Positions 4,045 through 39,989 of a stretch of 46,206 bases of DNA are shown here, piece after piece (position 1 is the first letter of the stretch; each line of letters opens with the position of its first letter). Both the position numbers and the translations under genes were made by a program. The DNA lies in IMG/VR virus record IMGVR_UViG_3300023179_000176, positions 1 to 46,206 of that record. One strand, given 5' to 3'. Source of the stretch: a virus. A model generated the notes under the pieces. It was not told where the DNA came from. It did not search any database and saw nothing but the letters and a program-made list of their open reading frames with translations.

Positions 4045-4767
4045 TTATTTAATATCTTTATTTTTAATATTTAACTTTCTTAAATATCTTTTAGCTTGAG
4101 ATATAGGAACCAACGTACCGTCAGGTAATTCAACTACCTTTTTATTTGCTCCTATAGGATTACCTACTAATAAGAAATAACAATTATAACATAAAAGTCT
4201 TACATTGCTTAAATTGAAATTAGACCTATCAGCATCTTTAAAATGAAGAACTAAAGGAACTTGATAATCAAATTCTCTTCTCATTGAATATCCGCAGTTT
4301 TCACAACACTCTGGTAATATATTTTCTTTTATTAAGCGTCTTTTAAAATCCTTATAACTGTAATTAGGATGTTTATTGTCTAATATATCTTGTATAGGAT
4401 AAGCAACAAACCGACCTCCTGGTCTAGATGACGGAGGTCTTAATGCTGCTTTCTCTCTACGTATTTTTTCTGAATTAGCTCTGCGCTTACTGGCGTTATT
4501 ATCTCTATGAAGATCAAAAAGGTTCTTCCCAGTTTCTTTATCTATATATAGTATGGCATATCGTTTAAATGTATTATAATCGATATTCAGCCATCTTGCA
4601 GCTTCTTGACACGTACGGGTATTTTCCATTGCGTATCGTATTTGCGATTCTAATAAATTTAAAGGAGCTGCTCCCCTTGCTCGATGCCTATGCCTTATTT
4701 TAAAAGGCGCGCCGTAATTAGATATAGCATGTAACGATGAATATAACGATGAACTACTTTCGTTCAT
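4045..4767 (-). CDS. HNH-like zinc-binding protein with helix-turn-helix region
   Basis: The 240-residue product has two visible parts. Residues about 35-80 (QIRYAMENTRTCQEAARWLN, then IDYNTFKRYA) look like a helix-turn-helix of the kind in mobile endonucleases. Residues about 153-205 look like an HNH/zinc domain: CENCGY, LVLHFKDADRSNFNLSNVR, then LCYNCYF. The first His and the Asp-Asn framework are kept, but the usual final CxxCH histidine is Tyr/Phe, so cleavage activity is doubtful. The C-terminal VELPDGTLVPISQAKRYLRK may be another DNA-contact element. It is probably a homing-endonuclease relative or a domesticated DNA-binding protein. Confidence 0.62.
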   Translation of the reverse strand: MNESSSSLYSSLHAISNYGAPFKIRHRHRARGAAPLNLLESQIRYAMENTRTCQEAARWLNIDYNTFKRYAILYIDKETGKNLFDLHRDNNASKRRANSEKIRREKAALRPPSSRPGGRFVAYPIQDILDNKHPNYSYKDFKRRLIKENILPECCENCGYSMRREFDYQVPLVLHFKDADRSNFNLSNVRLLCYNCYFLLVGNPIGANKKVVELPDGTLVPISQAKRYLRKLNIKNKDIK

Positions 4768-34384: not shown

Positions 34385-34831
34385 TTAGGGTTTTAAAAGT
34401 TGTTTAATCTCTTTATCAGACTTACCGTATAACTTAATTATACGCTCAATATCCGCCGTTTTATTAGTTAAGGTTAATATGTCTAGATAATCAATAGCGT
34501 CGCTTTTACTGCAAGTATAGTGCTTTGCAAATAAATCTACCAATTGAGAATTATACTTATCTTGCTTTTTACCCTTAACGTACTTCGAGTAAAATTTCTT
34601 TTTAGGCAATATATCGTAATATAACTGATAAGTTTCTTTTGGCGACAATAATCCTATTGTATACTTTTGAAACTCATTAACTATCTCGATTAGTTCGTAG
34701 TTCATACTTAACCAACGGTTAATTAAATAACTAGACCAGCTTTTAAGATTCTTTTCAGAATACTTTGCGATAGGTAATTTCTTATCAGTTATATTACCGA
34801 TATGATCGAAGATTGTAAAATCTTTTTCCAT
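34385..34831 (-). CDS. 62: Clamp-loader small subunit (T4 gp62-like)
   Basis: The 148-residue protein matches the gp62 pattern of T4-like phages: LKSWSSYLINRWLSMNYELI, IVNEFQKYTIGLLSPKETYQ and YDILPKKKFYSKYVKGKK, followed by a helical end with TCSKSDAIDYLDILT. T4 gp62 is about 187 residues, so this is somewhat short. It binds four gp44 ATPase subunits to load the clamp. Position right next to gp44 and gp45 strengthens the call: T4 has the order 45-44-62. Confidence 0.78.
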   Translation of the reverse strand: MEKDFTIFDHIGNITDKKLPIAKYSEKNLKSWSSYLINRWLSMNYELIEIVNEFQKYTIGLLSPKETYQLYYDILPKKKFYSKYVKGKKQDKYNSQLVDLFAKHYTCSKSDAIDYLDILTLTNKTADIERIIKLYGKSDKEIKQLLKP

Positions 34832-35052
34832 TAAGCGTTTGGTAATGCAAATTTAGACGGGATATTTCCGCAGCTCGTGCATTGGAATTGTTGTACCGGA
34901 ATCATTGATTCCTTACCTGTTGGTGAAATAAGTGCCGATAATACACGAAACTTAAACACTGGTAAAAATACATCATTACCACATTCACACGCAAATTCCT
35001 GAGTGTCTTTCAAACTAATGTTAATATTAGTTTCCATTTCTTGCTGTTCCAT
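34831..35052 (-). CDS. Small zinc-ribbon phage protein
   Basis: The 73-residue protein has two CxxC pairs, FACECGNDVFLPVFKFRVL (CECG) and VQQFQCTSCGNIPSKF (CTSC), separated by a beta-rich stretch (FRVLSALISPTGKESMIPVQ). This is a classic zinc-ribbon frame of a kind seen near replication genes in T4-like phages. No specific role is known. It lies between gp44-C and gp62, touches the gp62 start, and is preceded by an AAAGGAG site. Confidence 0.72.
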   Translation of the reverse strand: MEQQEMETNINISLKDTQEFACECGNDVFLPVFKFRVLSALISPTGKESMIPVQQFQCTSCGNIPSKFALPNA

Positions 35053-35068
35053 TCTGTAACTCCTTTTT

Positions 35069-35806
35069 TTAATTTAACTCGTTTAACAATTGCACGAAAG
35101 TTGACATTACATTAATTTCTTTATCAACTACTAAAGAATCTTTGTATTGGGCTTCTGCTATAATAAGTATTGACCCTGCCAAATGTCCCGTTGCAAAATT
35201 ATCTAAATTGTCATACAAAAATCTATATAACGATGTAAAATCTTTTACTTGACTATCTGCTAATAATTGACGTATGTTTTGAAATTTAGTTTTCTTATCT
35301 TCATTCGAAGAAAGTATTTCTAATAACTTAGTCATATAATTAGCTTCAATTAAACTTTGCTTATCAAGTTTTAATTCACCGTTAATACTTTGTCTCTGAC
35401 ACGTATTTAATATTCTACGTATATCTGGATATGAAGAATTAATAATTGCTACTAAATCATTCATTTCAAATGCTACGTTTTCTAATTTAAGCACTTGGCT
35501 TACTCTGACTGCTACATCCTTTTTTGTAGGCGGTGTAATTGCAAACACCTGACAACGTGATTGAATTGGGTCAATAATCTTTTCAACGTAATTACAAGTT
35601 AAAATAAATCTCGTCGTCTTTGAAAAGGTTTCCATTAAGTTACGTAAAGCAGCTTGACCATTCGGAGACATGTAGTCGCAATTATGCGTTAATGTTTCGG
35701 TCTCGCCTATAAAAAAATTATTATTACGATGTACAGATAAATCATAAACGGGTGCTATGCGATCTGTTTTTTTGATCGATTTAATCTTTATTTTTTTTAA
35801 TTCCAT
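35069..35806 (-). CDS. 44: Clamp loader gp44 C-terminal half with split-intein IntC
   Basis: Residues 1-42 (MELKKIKIKSIKKTDRIAPV, then YDLSVHRNNNFFIGETETLT and HN) form a C-terminal split intein: YDLSV is block F, and THN followed by Cys43 is the splice junction. Residues 43-245 are the rest of an AAA+ clamp-loader ATPase: CDYMSPNGQAALRNLMETF, FILTCNYVEKIIDPIQSRCQ (the SRC arginine-finger motif) and helices to the end. It needs trans-splicing with the N-half (36790-37416) to work. The endonuclease gene overlaps its start by 26 bases. Confidence 0.92.
   Translation of the reverse strand: MELKKIKIKSIKKTDRIAPVYDLSVHRNNNFFIGETETLTHNCDYMSPNGQAALRNLMETFSKTTRFILTCNYVEKIIDPIQSRCQVFAITPPTKKDVAVRVSQVLKLENVAFEMNDLVAIINSSYPDIRRILNTCQRQSINGELKLDKQSLIEANYMTKLLEILSSNEDKKTKFQNIRQLLADSQVKDFTSLYRFLYDNLDNFATGHLAGSILIIAEAQYKDSLVVDKEINVMSTFVQLLNELN
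35681..35806 (-). mobile_element. Split intein C-terminal fragment (IntC), 42 aa
   Basis: The fragment covers residues 1-42 of the gp44-C protein and ends in THN followed by Cys (codon TGC at 35678-35680). The expected His-Asn at the C-terminal junction and a Cys as +1 nucleophile are present, as is block F (PVYDLSV, then NNNFFIG). All residues needed for C-terminal cleavage and splicing are visible. Confidence 0.9.
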
Positions 35807-36731
35807 TTTTTACTTTATGTAACTGTTTTAAATTTTCTGTATCAGTAAAATCTGATTCATTAATATAATTTATAATATTATTTTCATTTATCCAAATAAA
35901 CTTAATATTTTGTTCCATACACCATTTAATCGATTGTTGCATTTTATTATTTTGCACGTCCCATGTTGATCTAGGCTTTATTTCATAAATAATATTTTTA
36001 TTTCGATCATAAAAATCCGGTATATATGAATGTAATTCACCGTTGCTATCAGTCCATGGAATTCTTAATGTTTCAAATTCTAAATGTTGATTTGAGTTCC
36101 AAAATACAGCTTCCCATGAACTTCTAAATTTTTTTATTTGTCCGTTATCAAGTACAATTTTTGCATCCCAATGAGTTCTTGAATTTGTTATTTTAGGTAC
36201 TACTTCGCCATTAGCAATTTTACGTTTTAATGTATCTGATATTTTTTTGTGACGTATACGTCGATCGTTCAATGTATTAGGATCCGAATTATACTTTTTC
36301 ATTTTTTCTGCATTCAATTTACTCATTTTTTGTTTATGAATAAAACCGTCTTCGCTTTGATACCAAGCCATTTTGCTTTTACGGAATTTAGCCCTTTGCT
36401 CGTCAGAATATATTTTATTACGTTTCCAAGGCTGTTCTTTTTTACAATTATCACAACACTTAGAACCATTTTTATAGATAAATTTCTTATTACAATGCTT
36501 ACATTCTTCTTGGTATCCGTTGCTTTTACAAGAATTGCATATTATTTGATTATGTGCATAACTTATATAAGACTCATTACATTTCGTGCATATTAAAGTA
36601 AATTCATGACGTCCGCCGAATTTAGTATTTAGTTTTGCAAATTCGCGTAATTTGTCCTTGTACTCTTTAACTTTAAATTCATATTCATCAGTTGAATAAT
36701 TCTTTTTCCAACTTTCAAAAATGCTTGCCAT
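35781..36731 (-). CDS. Vsr/PD-(D/E)XK-type homing endonuclease within split intein locus
   Basis: The 316-residue protein has zinc-finger pairs (Cys 48/51, 65/68, 77/80 and 92/96), a NUMOD-like DNA-binding stretch (PWKRNKIYSDEQRAKFRKSK) and a C-terminal nuclease core: KFRSSWEAVFWN (206-ish), ELHSYIPDFYD (236-240) and IIYEIKPRS (E-x-K at 250-252). This is the D...E-x-K layout of the endonuclease family linked with fractured genes (I-Bth0305I/Vsr-like). It probably spreads the locus by cutting intein-free gp44. Its own RBS is AAGGAT, and the motif TATTTATACTAAA lies upstream. Confidence 0.85.
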   Translation of the reverse strand: MASIFESWKKNYSTDEYEFKVKEYKDKLREFAKLNTKFGGRHEFTLICTKCNESYISYAHNQIICNSCKSNGYQEECKHCNKKFIYKNGSKCCDNCKKEQPWKRNKIYSDEQRAKFRKSKMAWYQSEDGFIHKQKMSKLNAEKMKKYNSDPNTLNDRRIRHKKISDTLKRKIANGEVVPKITNSRTHWDAKIVLDNGQIKKFRSSWEAVFWNSNQHLEFETLRIPWTDSNGELHSYIPDFYDRNKNIIYEIKPRSTWDVQNNKMQQSIKWCMEQNIKFIWINENNIINYINESDFTDTENLKQLHKVKNGIKKNKD

Positions 36732-36740
36732 ATATTATCC

Positions 36741-36754
36741 TTTAGTATAAATAT
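36741..36754 (-). promoter_or_regulatory. Candidate promoter motif copy 4
   Basis: ATATTTATACTAAA on the minus strand lies 9 bases before the endonuclease ATG at 36731, one mismatch from the 14-base core of the other copies. It could give the endonuclease its own transcript. Function inferred. Confidence 0.35.
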
Positions 36755-36789
36755 GAGCATTTTACGTCAAATAGTCTATTTCTATTAAA

Positions 36790-37416
36790 TTATTTCGGAG
36801 ATAAAATATAATTATATTTTTCTAAATCTTTAGTTTTAACTACAATTACATTATTATCATCATCGTATACAAACCATTTATGGTCTTCAGTACATTTAAC
36901 TACCTCGCCATTTTCTAGTTCAATTTCCCAAATTACCTGATCTCCTTTAGTCCAAAAATAAAATGGTTGCCATTCAATAACATTGGTCTCAATATTATAC
37001 GATTTTACCAAATCATTATTTTCATTTAATTGTTCTATAGGAACTTTAATTTCATCGCCTTCGCGTAATACTGTAACCAATGTACCCGATTCTAAACATT
37101 CGTCTAATATAACTAATTTCCATTTTCTGAATCCAATTGTACTAGAAAAGTTCTTAATCTTTTCACGAACGGTATCTACAGAGTTTTCATCTGATGCATT
37201 AATATATAATAAATCGCAATCGATATTATTGGATATGATTTTAGCCAAAGTAGTTTTACCAGTACCGGCATTCCCATATAAAAGCAAATGCGGCACGTCG
37301 CCATTCTCTAAATAAAGTTTAACTTTATCTACAATACTTTGATTTCCTACATACCCTTCTAATGTATCAGGACGATATCGCTCTACCCATAGAGTATGTT
37401 CATTATTTCCAAACAT
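36790..37416 (-). CDS. 44: Clamp loader gp44 N-terminal half with split-intein IntN
   Basis: Residues 1-106 are the clamp-loader N-terminus: WVERYRPDTLEGYVGNQSIV (the RFC-box start) and LLLYGNAGTGKTTLAKIISN (Walker A), ending with KWKLVILDE (Walker B). Residues 107-208 are the N-intein: CLESGTLVTVLREGDEIKVP (block A with the essential Cys) and ELENGEVVKCTEDHKWFVYD (block B, TxxH), ending ILSPK. Without splicing this half has Walker A but lacks the second half of the ATPase. It is near the 37418 membrane-protein gene, two bases away. Confidence 0.93.
   Translation of the reverse strand: MFGNNEHTLWVERYRPDTLEGYVGNQSIVDKVKLYLENGDVPHLLLYGNAGTGKTTLAKIISNNIDCDLLYINASDENSVDTVREKIKNFSSTIGFRKWKLVILDECLESGTLVTVLREGDEIKVPIEQLNENNDLVKSYNIETNVIEWQPFYFWTKGDQVIWEIELENGEVVKCTEDHKWFVYDDDNNVIVVKTKDLEKYNYILSPK
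36793..37098 (-). mobile_element. Split intein N-terminal fragment (IntN), 102 aa
   Basis: It covers residues 107-208 of the gp44-N protein. Its first residue is Cys (codon TGT at 37096-37098) followed by LESGTLV (block A). Block B contains TEDH, in which Thr and His support the N-S shift. There is no nuclease domain in the fragment, consistent with a small split intein whose endonuclease is encoded separately. Confidence 0.9.
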
Positions 37417-37417
37417 A

Positions 37418-37642
37418 TTAATTTTTGTTTTTTAAGATTTTATATATACCGTATAAATTTAATAAAATAATAACTGCACTTAATGTCAGGTGCGGATAAA
37501 TACTACGCATTACATCATACGTAATCCATCCAATATCACCTACGATCCATACAGCCATCGCTTGGTAATGCAACCGATTAGAATTAAGCCAATAGCCTAG
37601 CAAAACTAAACCGGTTGCAACCCACCCTATAATGTCTACCAT
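37418..37642 (-). CDS. Small three-helix membrane protein
   Basis: The 74-residue protein has three hydrophobic segments: VDIIGWVATGLVLLGYWLNS, AMAVWIVGDIGWITYDVM and LTLSAVIILLNLYGIYKILK. It resembles small bacterial membrane proteins of the CBU_0592 type by pattern; I am not certain. It lies between the clamp gene (its ATG touches the clamp stop) and the clamp-loader N-half. A membrane protein in the replisome operon is odd; it could anchor replication to the membrane, which is speculative. Confidence 0.7.
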   Translation of the reverse strand: MVDIIGWVATGLVLLGYWLNSNRLHYQAMAVWIVGDIGWITYDVMRSIYPHLTLSAVIILLNLYGIYKILKNKN

Positions 37643-38355
37643 TAACTAATTGTTAGTTTAACTAAATAATAAGTCGATGAATAATCAGTATTCGTAAATG
37701 TAACTCGAGCTAATCCTTTAGAACTAATTTCTAAAGTACCTTGAGCGCCATCATTTGCTACTAAAATTTCTTTAAAGATTTTTGCAGAAAAACAAATTGG
37801 AGAAAAATCACCCGCTGTATTTGCATCTACTTTAAAGTTAATTCTATTTGTATTGATTGAAGAATAATTAATTACCATATTCGTTTCACCGTTAGTACAT
37901 TGAACTGCAAAGTTATCTGAATCAGGTAAAGCATTCTTTGCCTTAATAAATTTAGATACAAACTCCTTTGTGATGTTAATTGAGCAATCGAATTCAGGAA
38001 GCGTCTTTAACGCAGGCACTTGACGAATAACTGATAAGTCAGCCAACATATACGTTACGTTAGTTGTCTTATCTTTAAAGTTCATACTATAAACTTTATT
38101 TTCTGATTCGCCATAAGTGATATCAATATCATTATCCAATGCAGATAATAGTTTCAATAATTGCGAAGTTGTATATACACCTAACTCAGCATCTTTTGTG
38201 TCAAAAGAATTAAGAGTAACTTCTCCAATTACGTTTTGATCTGTTGTGATAAAACTAGTAGTTAACTTTTTGTCTTTGATAACTATCTTCGCACTATCGG
38301 TATTTCCGGCCAAATAATATTTGCCGAGAAAGTTTTCAAATTTACTTTTTTCCAT
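37642..38355 (-). CDS. 45: DNA polymerase sliding clamp (T4 gp45-like)
   Basis: The 237-residue protein is close to T4 gp45 (228). Its alternating beta and helix pattern is that of a two-domain clamp subunit: LTTSFITTDQNVIGEVTLNS, VYTTSQLLKLLSALDNDIDI, then NITKEFVSKFIKAKNALPDS and FSPICFSAKIFKEILVANDG in the second domain, ending SSTYYLVKLTIS. Three subunits would form a ring on DNA that holds the polymerase. It lies in line with gp44 and gp62, as in T4. An ATATTTAG string precedes the ATG. Confidence 0.9.
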   Translation of the reverse strand: MEKSKFENFLGKYYLAGNTDSAKIVIKDKKLTTSFITTDQNVIGEVTLNSFDTKDAELGVYTTSQLLKLLSALDNDIDITYGESENKVYSMNFKDKTTNVTYMLADLSVIRQVPALKTLPEFDCSINITKEFVSKFIKAKNALPDSDNFAVQCTNGETNMVINYSSINTNRINFKVDANTAGDFSPICFSAKIFKEILVANDGAQGTLEISSKGLARVTFTNTDYSSTYYLVKLTIS

Positions 38356-38381: not shown

Positions 38382-39989
38382 TTAATAAGCATTTTGTTCA
38401 GATTTATTTTCCTCTATTTTCTCTACAATAGAGCATTCGGTAGTCAAAATCATTGACGCAATAGATGATGCATTCTGAAGAGCTACTCTACTTACCTTCG
38501 CAGGGTCAATAACACCTGATTCAATCATATTCTCATATTGTTCCGTACGAGCATTATAACCAAAATCATTATTTCCTTCACGAACCTTTTGTACTACAAC
38601 AGATCCTTCTACACCTGCATTATAACAAATTTGACGAAGCGGTTCTTCTAATGCTTTTCTAATAATATGAATACCTGTTGTCTCATCATCATTCGCACCT
38701 GTCATTTTATCTAATGCTTCAATACAACGAATGTATGCAACTCCGCCTCCCGGTACAATACCTTCTTCCAATGCAGCTCTAGTAGCATGAAGAGCGTCAT
38801 CCACCCTATCTTTCTTTTCTTTCATTTCAACTTCCGTAGCCGCTCCGATATACAATACTGCAACACCGCCTACTAATTTAGCAAGACGCTCTTGTAATTT
38901 TTCTTTATCAAAATCTGACGTACTAGTGTCAATTTGATTTTTGATCGTATTAATACGTTCTGTAATTGATTCGGTAGTACCTCCACCATTAACAATTACC
39001 GTAGAGTCTTTATTAACAATAACCTTTTCAGCACGTCCTAAAAACTTAATATCTAACGTTTCTAATTTATGTCCTAACTCTTTAGATATTACACTACCAC
39101 CAGTAAGTGCAGCGATATCTTCCATGATTGCTTTTCTACGATCGCCAAATGCAGGAGCTTTAATTGCAGCTACTTTAATTGATCTACGTAAAGAGTTAAC
39201 AACTAACGTACCTAATGATTCACCTTCAACATCTTCTGCAATAATTAAAAGTGACTTACCTGTTTGAACTACCTTTTCTAATAATGGTAAAAATTCTTTT
39301 AAGGCACTAATACGTTTGTCGTAAAGAAGTATATAAGGATTTTCTAATACAGCTTCTTGTTTATCTGGGTTATTGATAAAATAAGGACTGATATATCCTT
39401 TATCAATTTGCATACCTTCAACAATATTAACTGTTGTCTCAATACCTTTAGCTTCTTCTACTGTAATAACTCCTTCTTTAGTAACCTTACCAATTGCATC
39501 TGCAATTAAATTACCAATTTCAAAATCATTATTTGCAGAGATTGTGGCTACCTGTCTTAACTTATCGCTATTATCACTTACAGGAACGCTTATTTTATTT
39601 AATTCTGTAATTACTGTGTCTACTGCTTTATCCATTCCTCTTTTCAAGTCCATTGGATTTGCTCCTGCCGCTACATTTTTTAATCCTGCAGTAACGATAG
39701 CTTGTGCTAATACAGTTGCAGTAGTGGTTCCATCACCTGCTACATCAGCGGTCTTCGATGCAACCTCTTTTACCATTTGAGCGCCCATATTCTCTAACGG
39801 GTCATTTAACTCAATTTCTTTTGCTACAGTAACTCCGTCTTTTGTTACGATTGGATTACTGTTTGATTTACCGATAATTACGTTACGCCCTTTAGGCCCT
39901 AATGTAGTTTTCACTGCGTTTGCCAGTGTATCTATCCCACGTTTCAAACCATCGCGGGCATCGGTGTTAAAATTAATTTGTTTTGCCAT
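38382..39989 (-). CDS. groEL: Chaperonin GroEL
   Basis: A full-length 535-residue chaperonin subunit. [40 protein letters not shown] and [20 protein letters not shown] carry the ATP-binding GDGTTT and the KDG residues, and [18 protein letters not shown] is the second nucleotide motif. The C-terminus is ENKSEQNAY with no GGM-rich tail. It has a strong AAGGAAG site. T4 encodes only a GroES substitute (gp31) and uses host GroEL; here the phage supplies GroEL itself, probably for capsid or tail folding. No GroES-like gene is in the window. Confidence 0.97.

Follow-up and report, generated by a model that had tools for sequence, protein, structure and literature searches.

The analysed stretch, hereafter the window, is the whole of IMG/VR virus record IMGVR_UViG_3300023179_000176 (46,206 bp), whose minus strand carries a fractured gene for the gp44 clamp-loader ATPase. 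This conserved gene is interrupted by a split intein, so that its two parts are separate open reading frames (ORFs) on one strand, and a free-standing endonuclease gene, here called E, lies between the intein halves. The N-terminal part of gp44 (N-extein), which also matches RFC small subunit and T4 gp44, continues into the N-terminal intein half (IntN), with its Cys1 and block B TxxH motif. IntN matches Pfam Intein_splicing (5.5e-10) and TIGR01445 (36 bits against a cutoff of 24.5). The C-terminal intein half (IntC) has blocks F (without the His) and G and the C-terminal Asn, and is followed by a +1 nucleophile; it matches TIGR01443 (25.4 bits, cutoff 15.6), and its Pfam Intein_splicing score of 23.6 bits is under the curated cutoff. 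The E and C-half ORFs share 26 bp, placing the IntC start codon within the 3′ end of E.

An original prediction made from the window alone had described a gp44 split in Walker B, with LVILDE running into an IntN that begins with Cys and contains TEDH, and a 42-residue IntC ending in THN ahead of CDYMSPNG. All three ORFs are present at the positions given, and the split falls directly after the Walker B Glu, within DExD. The expected match to known intein families was found for both halves, and the predicted spliced length of 309 residues was reproduced by computation and equals that of the uninterrupted gp44 in the syntenic relative L002. The ATPase sequence, with its Walker A and Walker B motifs, is preceded by a probable sliding-clamp gene like gp45 and followed by a gene like gp62 for the small clamp-loader subunit (Table 1), so that the replication module is otherwise intact.

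Table 1 Features of the fractured gp44 locus and of related three-piece loci
Feature	Coordinates	Strand	Description
N-half ORF	37416-36790	(-)	208 aa: 106-aa N-extein and 102-aa IntN
N-extein, gp44 clamp-loader ATPase	37099..37416	(-)	106 aa; Walker A, C-terminal Walker B LVILDE; PHROG_168 3.6e-32
IntN, N-terminal split-intein half	36793..37098	(-)	102 aa; Cys1, block B CTEDH
E, endonuclease gene between halves	36731-35781	(-)	316 aa; helices, two zinc ribbons, PD-(D/E)XK nuclease domain
Two CxxC..CxxC zinc ribbons of E	36444..36590	(-)	residues 48-96; eight Cys invariant in six homologs
Nuclease domain of E	35793..36200	(-)	residues 178-313; E207, D239, E250-x-K252; range aligned to TnsA, I-Bth0305I and Vsr folds
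C-half ORF	35806-35069	(-)	245 aa: 42-aa IntC and 203-aa C-extein
IntC, C-terminal split-intein half	35681..35806	(-)	42 aa; last residues THN; block F His replaced by Asn
C-extein of gp44	35072..35680	(-)	203 aa; first residues CDYMSPNG with Cys+1 nucleophile; PHROG_168 1.2e-41
Whole inserted element	35681..37098	(-)	1,418 bp; not in syntenic relative L002
gp62-like small clamp-loader subunit	34385..34831	(-)	Pfam Phage_clamp_A 1.7e-9; PHROG_225 4e-18
Sliding clamp, gp45-like (probable)	37642..38355	(-)	weak PHROG_947 match (0.0098) and gene order common to relatives
Three-piece gp44 loci	L128:1626-6171; L132:676-4573; L118:2012-6465		split inteins at Walker A and Walker B

E resembles TnsA-like PD-(D/E)XK nucleases

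E matches an endonuclease family (PHROG_15427, 3.4e-21). AlphaFold2, supplied with 36 homologs, gave a confident model (predicted local distance difference test score, pLDDT, 92; predicted template modelling score, pTM, 0.60) in which the chain runs from N-terminal helices through two zinc ribbons and a helical linker to a nuclease domain of restriction-like fold. The closest structural matches were TnsA (Z 7.8), I-Bth0305I (5.9) and Vsr (5.8), all with Z scores below 8, which are weak on their own. E207, D239, D242, E250 and K252 are invariant across the 36 homologs, and the PDF...E-x-K motif is present, so that the restriction-like core has a PD...(D/E)xK active site. Of the 36 members, 26 match Pfam TnsA-like_N, the window E scoring just below the cutoff (25.5 against 26.5). 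The description that fits E best is that of a putative homing endonuclease, TnsA-like and of the PD-(D/E)XK type.

The zinc fingers and motif originally reported for this gene were both recovered, the former as eight conserved Cys in two zinc ribbons. Of the designation “Vsr-like endonuclease”, the word endonuclease holds; the motif does not support “Vsr-like”, which suits the fold only loosely. We rejected the suggested I-Bth0305I-like (EDxHD) family, as the E-D-x-H-D signature is absent and the 36-member alignment contains no invariant His. E matches I-Bth0305I and Vsr, at the Z scores given above, in a restriction-endonuclease-like fold but carries an E-D-ExK arrangement, and TnsA is nearer.

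The insertion has an empty counterpart and recurs at the same codon

L002, an IMG/VR contig of 5.2 kb, is 90% identical in nucleotide sequence to the window over its whole length and encodes a contiguous gp44. Since the same site is empty there, the window insert measures 1,418 bp. It lies exactly 3′ of the GAA codon of Glu106, and the codon after the insertion point is TGC (Cys) in the window versus GCG (Ala) in L002.

Related loci were collected by searches with an alignment of E and with IntN; the window E used alone found no relatives, and the alignment of homologs was required. The same order (N-extein, IntN, E, IntC, C-extein) at the same gp44 codon was found in 30 non-redundant loci, one of them LR756500, a huge phage of 462 kb, and the gp44s carrying the element are as little as about 30% identical. 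Because the fractured layout recurs in this way, it is not a chance arrangement. Neither this wide distribution nor the empty-site relative had been part of the original prediction. Its central claim has good support: gp44 is fractured and accompanied by a split intein and a gene for an endonuclease.

The splicing residues are conserved throughout: intein residue 1 is Cys, Asp-Glu occupies positions -2/-1 and Cys stands at +1 in 30/30 loci. The C-terminal Asn is likewise present in every locus, as HN (22), SN (7) or GN (1). The nucleophiles and His-Asn pair proposed for the window agree with this pattern, its IntC ending in THN. The +1 residue of 54 distinct intein-free gp44s is Ala, Ser or Phe, and Cys in none, which argues that the intein brings its own nucleophile and that splicing would leave a Cys in the Walker B DExD motif.

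The overlap between the E and C-half frames is kept in 28 of the 29 loci examined, which suggests translational coupling. No intact gp44 copy was found in any of 15 records with a fractured gp44, among them contigs of 188, 200 and 221 kb. Between relatives, the ratio of nonsynonymous to synonymous substitution rates (dN/dS) is 0.11-0.20 for IntN and 0.15-0.31 for E, values that place both under purifying selection.

The element has moved between genomes

Occupied and empty alleles occur in close relatives, the window itself being sister to the empty allele in the tree. Between loci L016 and L101 the element differs at only 7 of 1341 positions (0.5%), and its flanks at 72/1226 and 98/999 (6-10%; element versus flanks, Fisher 3e-27); the tract of low divergence stops about 30 nt beyond the insertion point. 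The movement extends to strongly diverged gp44s, as in L090 and L122, whose inteins are 66% identical and whose exteins are 31% identical. Together with purifying selection, the L016/L101 tract, the higher identity of intein than extein and the empty sister allele indicate a homing element that is active or was recently active.

Homologs of E also stand beside uninterrupted gp44

A further feature beyond the original prediction is that E homologs lie just upstream of uninterrupted gp44 genes (L006, L007/L107, L100, L104, L105, L113 and L114), in which the site reads DEFD. The C-extein tree disperses these phages among relatives that lack E, and their grouping with L055/L060 as one clade was rejected (approximately unbiased (AU) test, p = 4.6e-8). 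Free-standing E itself forms one clade (support 100/98), and its branching agrees with that of the N-extein. In the five best-resolved cases, identity to the nearest E-free relative is 0.63-0.70 before and 0.79-0.88 after a point that lies +16 to +60 nt beyond the intein insertion, and in six of seven cases the breakpoint falls within -47 to +60 nt of the intein site. In 480 control pairs without inteins, conservation is as a rule higher in the N-extein (0.816 vs 0.765), and it is reversed by at least 0.08 in only 0.4% of them. Upstream of the free-standing E, similarity returns just before the gene.

From the scattering in the tree, the breakpoints and the resumed upstream similarity, we conclude that a block comprising E and the N-half has been exchanged repeatedly, ending at the intein site. 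This is the trace that intronless homing by an enzyme cutting near the Walker B codons predicts. Trees of the N-half alone are short, and the AU test on them rejects neither one clade nor several for the free-standing-E loci; the argument is therefore based on the C-extein tree and the breakpoints. Because Phe at +1 is unable to act as a splicing nucleophile, DEFD alleles would be intein-proof, and they are possibly cut-resistant as well.

The intein-housed state is favoured as the older one, given that all outgroups of the E tree are intein-associated and that the free-standing clade sits within or next to the gp44 set. Against a firm direction stand the lack of resolution at the base of the gp44 E tree and the long-branched LR756500 E, which is placed outside that tree. 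L055 (3680-4606) and L060 combine a DEFD gp44 and an N-half of the free-standing-E type with no E upstream, and in L055 a dUTPase-like gene occupies the E slot; both are possibly the footprint of a lost endonuclease.

Related elements split other ATPase genes at Walker B

Terminase, helicase and PhoH genes were also found to be interrupted at Walker B (DE|C) by split inteins with an E homolog between the two halves; junctions were read in representatives. The terminase large subunit is interrupted in this way in metagenomic phages (L145-L158) and in the cultured T4-like phages HY03 and TG1. Loci L200:1971-4823, L201:1914-4763 and L198:1915-5062 hold such terminase genes from cultured T4-like phages; their IntN is short and their IntC long, as in atypically split inteins. 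In the terminases of TB34 and GoldenSnicker, E is fused to the N-half, in frame in TB34. In Proteus phage PM2 and Salmonella phage STP4-a it is the UvsW helicase that a split intein with an E homolog divides at Walker B (L199:1877-4609, L204:1634-4360), and in Campylobacter phage CP20 it is the PhoH-like ATPase (L203:957-3932). Other helicases with an E homolog between the intein halves are those of L129, L159, L186 and L194.

In L128, L132 and L118 a second split intein, which like the Walker B one has an endonuclease-like ORF to itself, also interrupts gp44 at Walker A (GK|C... / ...HN|T). The middle gp44 piece carries both a C-terminal and an N-terminal intein region, each above the curated cutoffs, and with two split inteins, two splicing events would have to join three proteins. 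A contiguous Walker A intein and a Walker B IntN occur within one ORF at L115:3564-4673, and also in L116 and L117.

On balance, we lean towards the view that a single lineage of homing endonucleases has become specialised for Walker B codons in phage ATPase genes (clamp loader, terminase, UvsW and other helicases, PhoH). Its two lifestyles at gp44 would be residence within a split intein and a free-standing existence upstream of a target that is recoded and intein-proof, and the lineage would have helped to produce three-polypeptide clamp loaders that depend on two trans-splicing reactions.

Proposed mechanism and alternative explanations

We propose that gp44 very probably holds a mobile composite element directly after its Walker B Asp-Glu codons, consisting of a split intein, whose halves trans-splice, and a separate homing endonuclease gene, whose product spreads the element. 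The two gp44 halves would be made as separate proteins, after which IntN and IntC would associate, fold and ligate Glu106 to Cys+1. This would restore the clamp loader with an ATPase of 309 aa whose DExD motif carries a single Ala/Ser-to-Cys change. Alleles of gp44 that lack the intein would be cut by E at the Walker B codons or close to them and would receive the whole element during repair. Trans-splicing in the window phage, DNA cleavage by E and the exact cut site are predictions that we infer from the sequences.

The support for this proposal comes from sequences and models, and several observations weigh against it. No second, intact gp44 is present in the window, but the record is a 46-kb fragment and such a copy may lie elsewhere in the genome. 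No clear local rise in divergence, as expected of a co-conversion tract, was seen between the window and L002. The window IntC reads HRNNNF where most relatives have GNHNF, and the block F His is also missing in three other loci of the 30; because of the Asn at this position, trans-splicing activity of the window intein should not be assumed. An AlphaFold model of the N-half alone was poor (pLDDT 59.5) and counts neither way.

A regulatory role beyond the selfish one, with the split intein co-opted as a switch that delays clamp-loader activity, is unlikely. The insertion lies directly in the ATPase active site, and the widespread overlap of the E and C-half frames could tune C-half supply, but the distribution is patchy, close relatives are intein-free, and there is no sign of anything missing in intein-free phages. 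We give little credence to a two-piece ATPase held together non-covalently, with dead intein remnants, as has been reported for a phage ribonucleotide reductase that is divided by a homing endonuclease. The Asn in the window's block F would fit such an enzyme, but the splicing residues are kept across all 30 diverged loci, IntN has a low dN/dS, the split falls inside the ATPase active site, and the three-piece gp44s hold two complete split inteins. Slightly less probable again is a reading in which the endonuclease is a bystander and gp44 simply passes on an old intein that does not move. Intein and extein identities do correlate across loci (r = 0.69), so that much of the history is vertical or within lineages; the near-identical element inside diverged flanks, the better conservation of intein than extein between deep lineages, the nesting of the window beside an empty relative and the travel of free-standing E with the N-half up to the same site all speak for mobility. 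Joining of the reading frames by RNA splicing or frameshifting is very improbable, and an RNA intron was rejected: although group I introns occur in nucleotide-metabolism genes of T4-type phages (PMC3653736), no Rfam match up to E=1 was found in 34800-37700 and none at gathering level in seven related loci, and both junctions encode intein blocks with matching nucleophiles.

Other features of the window

The window encodes another putative free-standing homing endonuclease, of the HNH type (4045-4767; PHROG_14736, 2.2e-12). A full-length phage GroEL gene (38382-39989) adjoins the replication genes; the best DNA matches include Bacteroides and Flavobacterium phages, hinting at a host among the Bacteroidota. 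A long run of ORFs (about 12011-32414) appears to encode glycosyltransferases, methyltransferases and sugar-nucleotide enzymes; for a stretch of 46 kb this is a sizeable island.

Relation to known systems and significance

The fractured genes of Dassa and colleagues are said to include gp41 and IMPDH in addition to nrdA and nrdJ. The nrd cases are given as seven nrdA and two nrdJ in PMC3653736 (citing Dassa et al. 2009, NAR 37:2560). Such genes share with the window the two host gene halves, IntN, an endonuclease ORF and IntC, whereas the window has gp44 as host gene and a TnsA-like PD-(D/E)XK endonuclease instead of the EDxHD type. The AceL NrdHF intein (98-aa IntN, 48-aa IntC; PMC7891396) likewise belongs to a phage-like fractured gene with an intervening endonuclease gene, but it is of class 3, its host gene is nrdHF and the endonuclease is of the GIY-YIG type, in contrast to the class 1 intein (Cys1, Cys+1) in gp44. 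Insertion at Walker B of a phage ATPase is known from TerL1-e, a contiguous mycobacteriophage intein (PMC5050341), and split TerL inteins are also known; the TerL loci with E homologs found here are split around the E gene. Archaeal RFC small-subunit inteins also reside in a clamp-loader ATPase but are not described as split in PMC5874633, unlike this split phage intein. Finally, the free-standing homing endonucleases of T4 phages, with intronless and collaborative homing (PMC2988022), resemble free-standing E in lying beside the presumed target with a co-inherited flank, but the E lineage also occurs inside a split intein at the target site.

We found no prior report of a split intein in a phage clamp loader, in gp44 or at its Walker B in the literature searched, whose coverage was incomplete and did not include the locus list of Dassa et al. 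2009. The fractured-gene type is known; as far as that literature goes, its occurrence in gp44, the many related loci and the double lifestyle of E appear undescribed. Unusual features are the Cys scar, a TnsA-like endonuclease with two lifestyles at one site, the preference for Walker B across ATPases and the three-piece relatives.

These loci bear on the old question of how inteins or introns and endonucleases join and part. With the same E clade and the same target codons in empty, free-standing and intein-housed states among close relatives, collaborative and intronless homing become testable at a single site. The loci are also a source of many new natural split inteins of related sequence, and the cultured T4-like phages HY03, TG1, PM2 and STP4-a, with homologous fractured terminase or UvsW genes, make experiments possible before the window phage is isolated. 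The Cys that splicing would leave in Walker B suggests that inteins are able to alter an essential active site lastingly.
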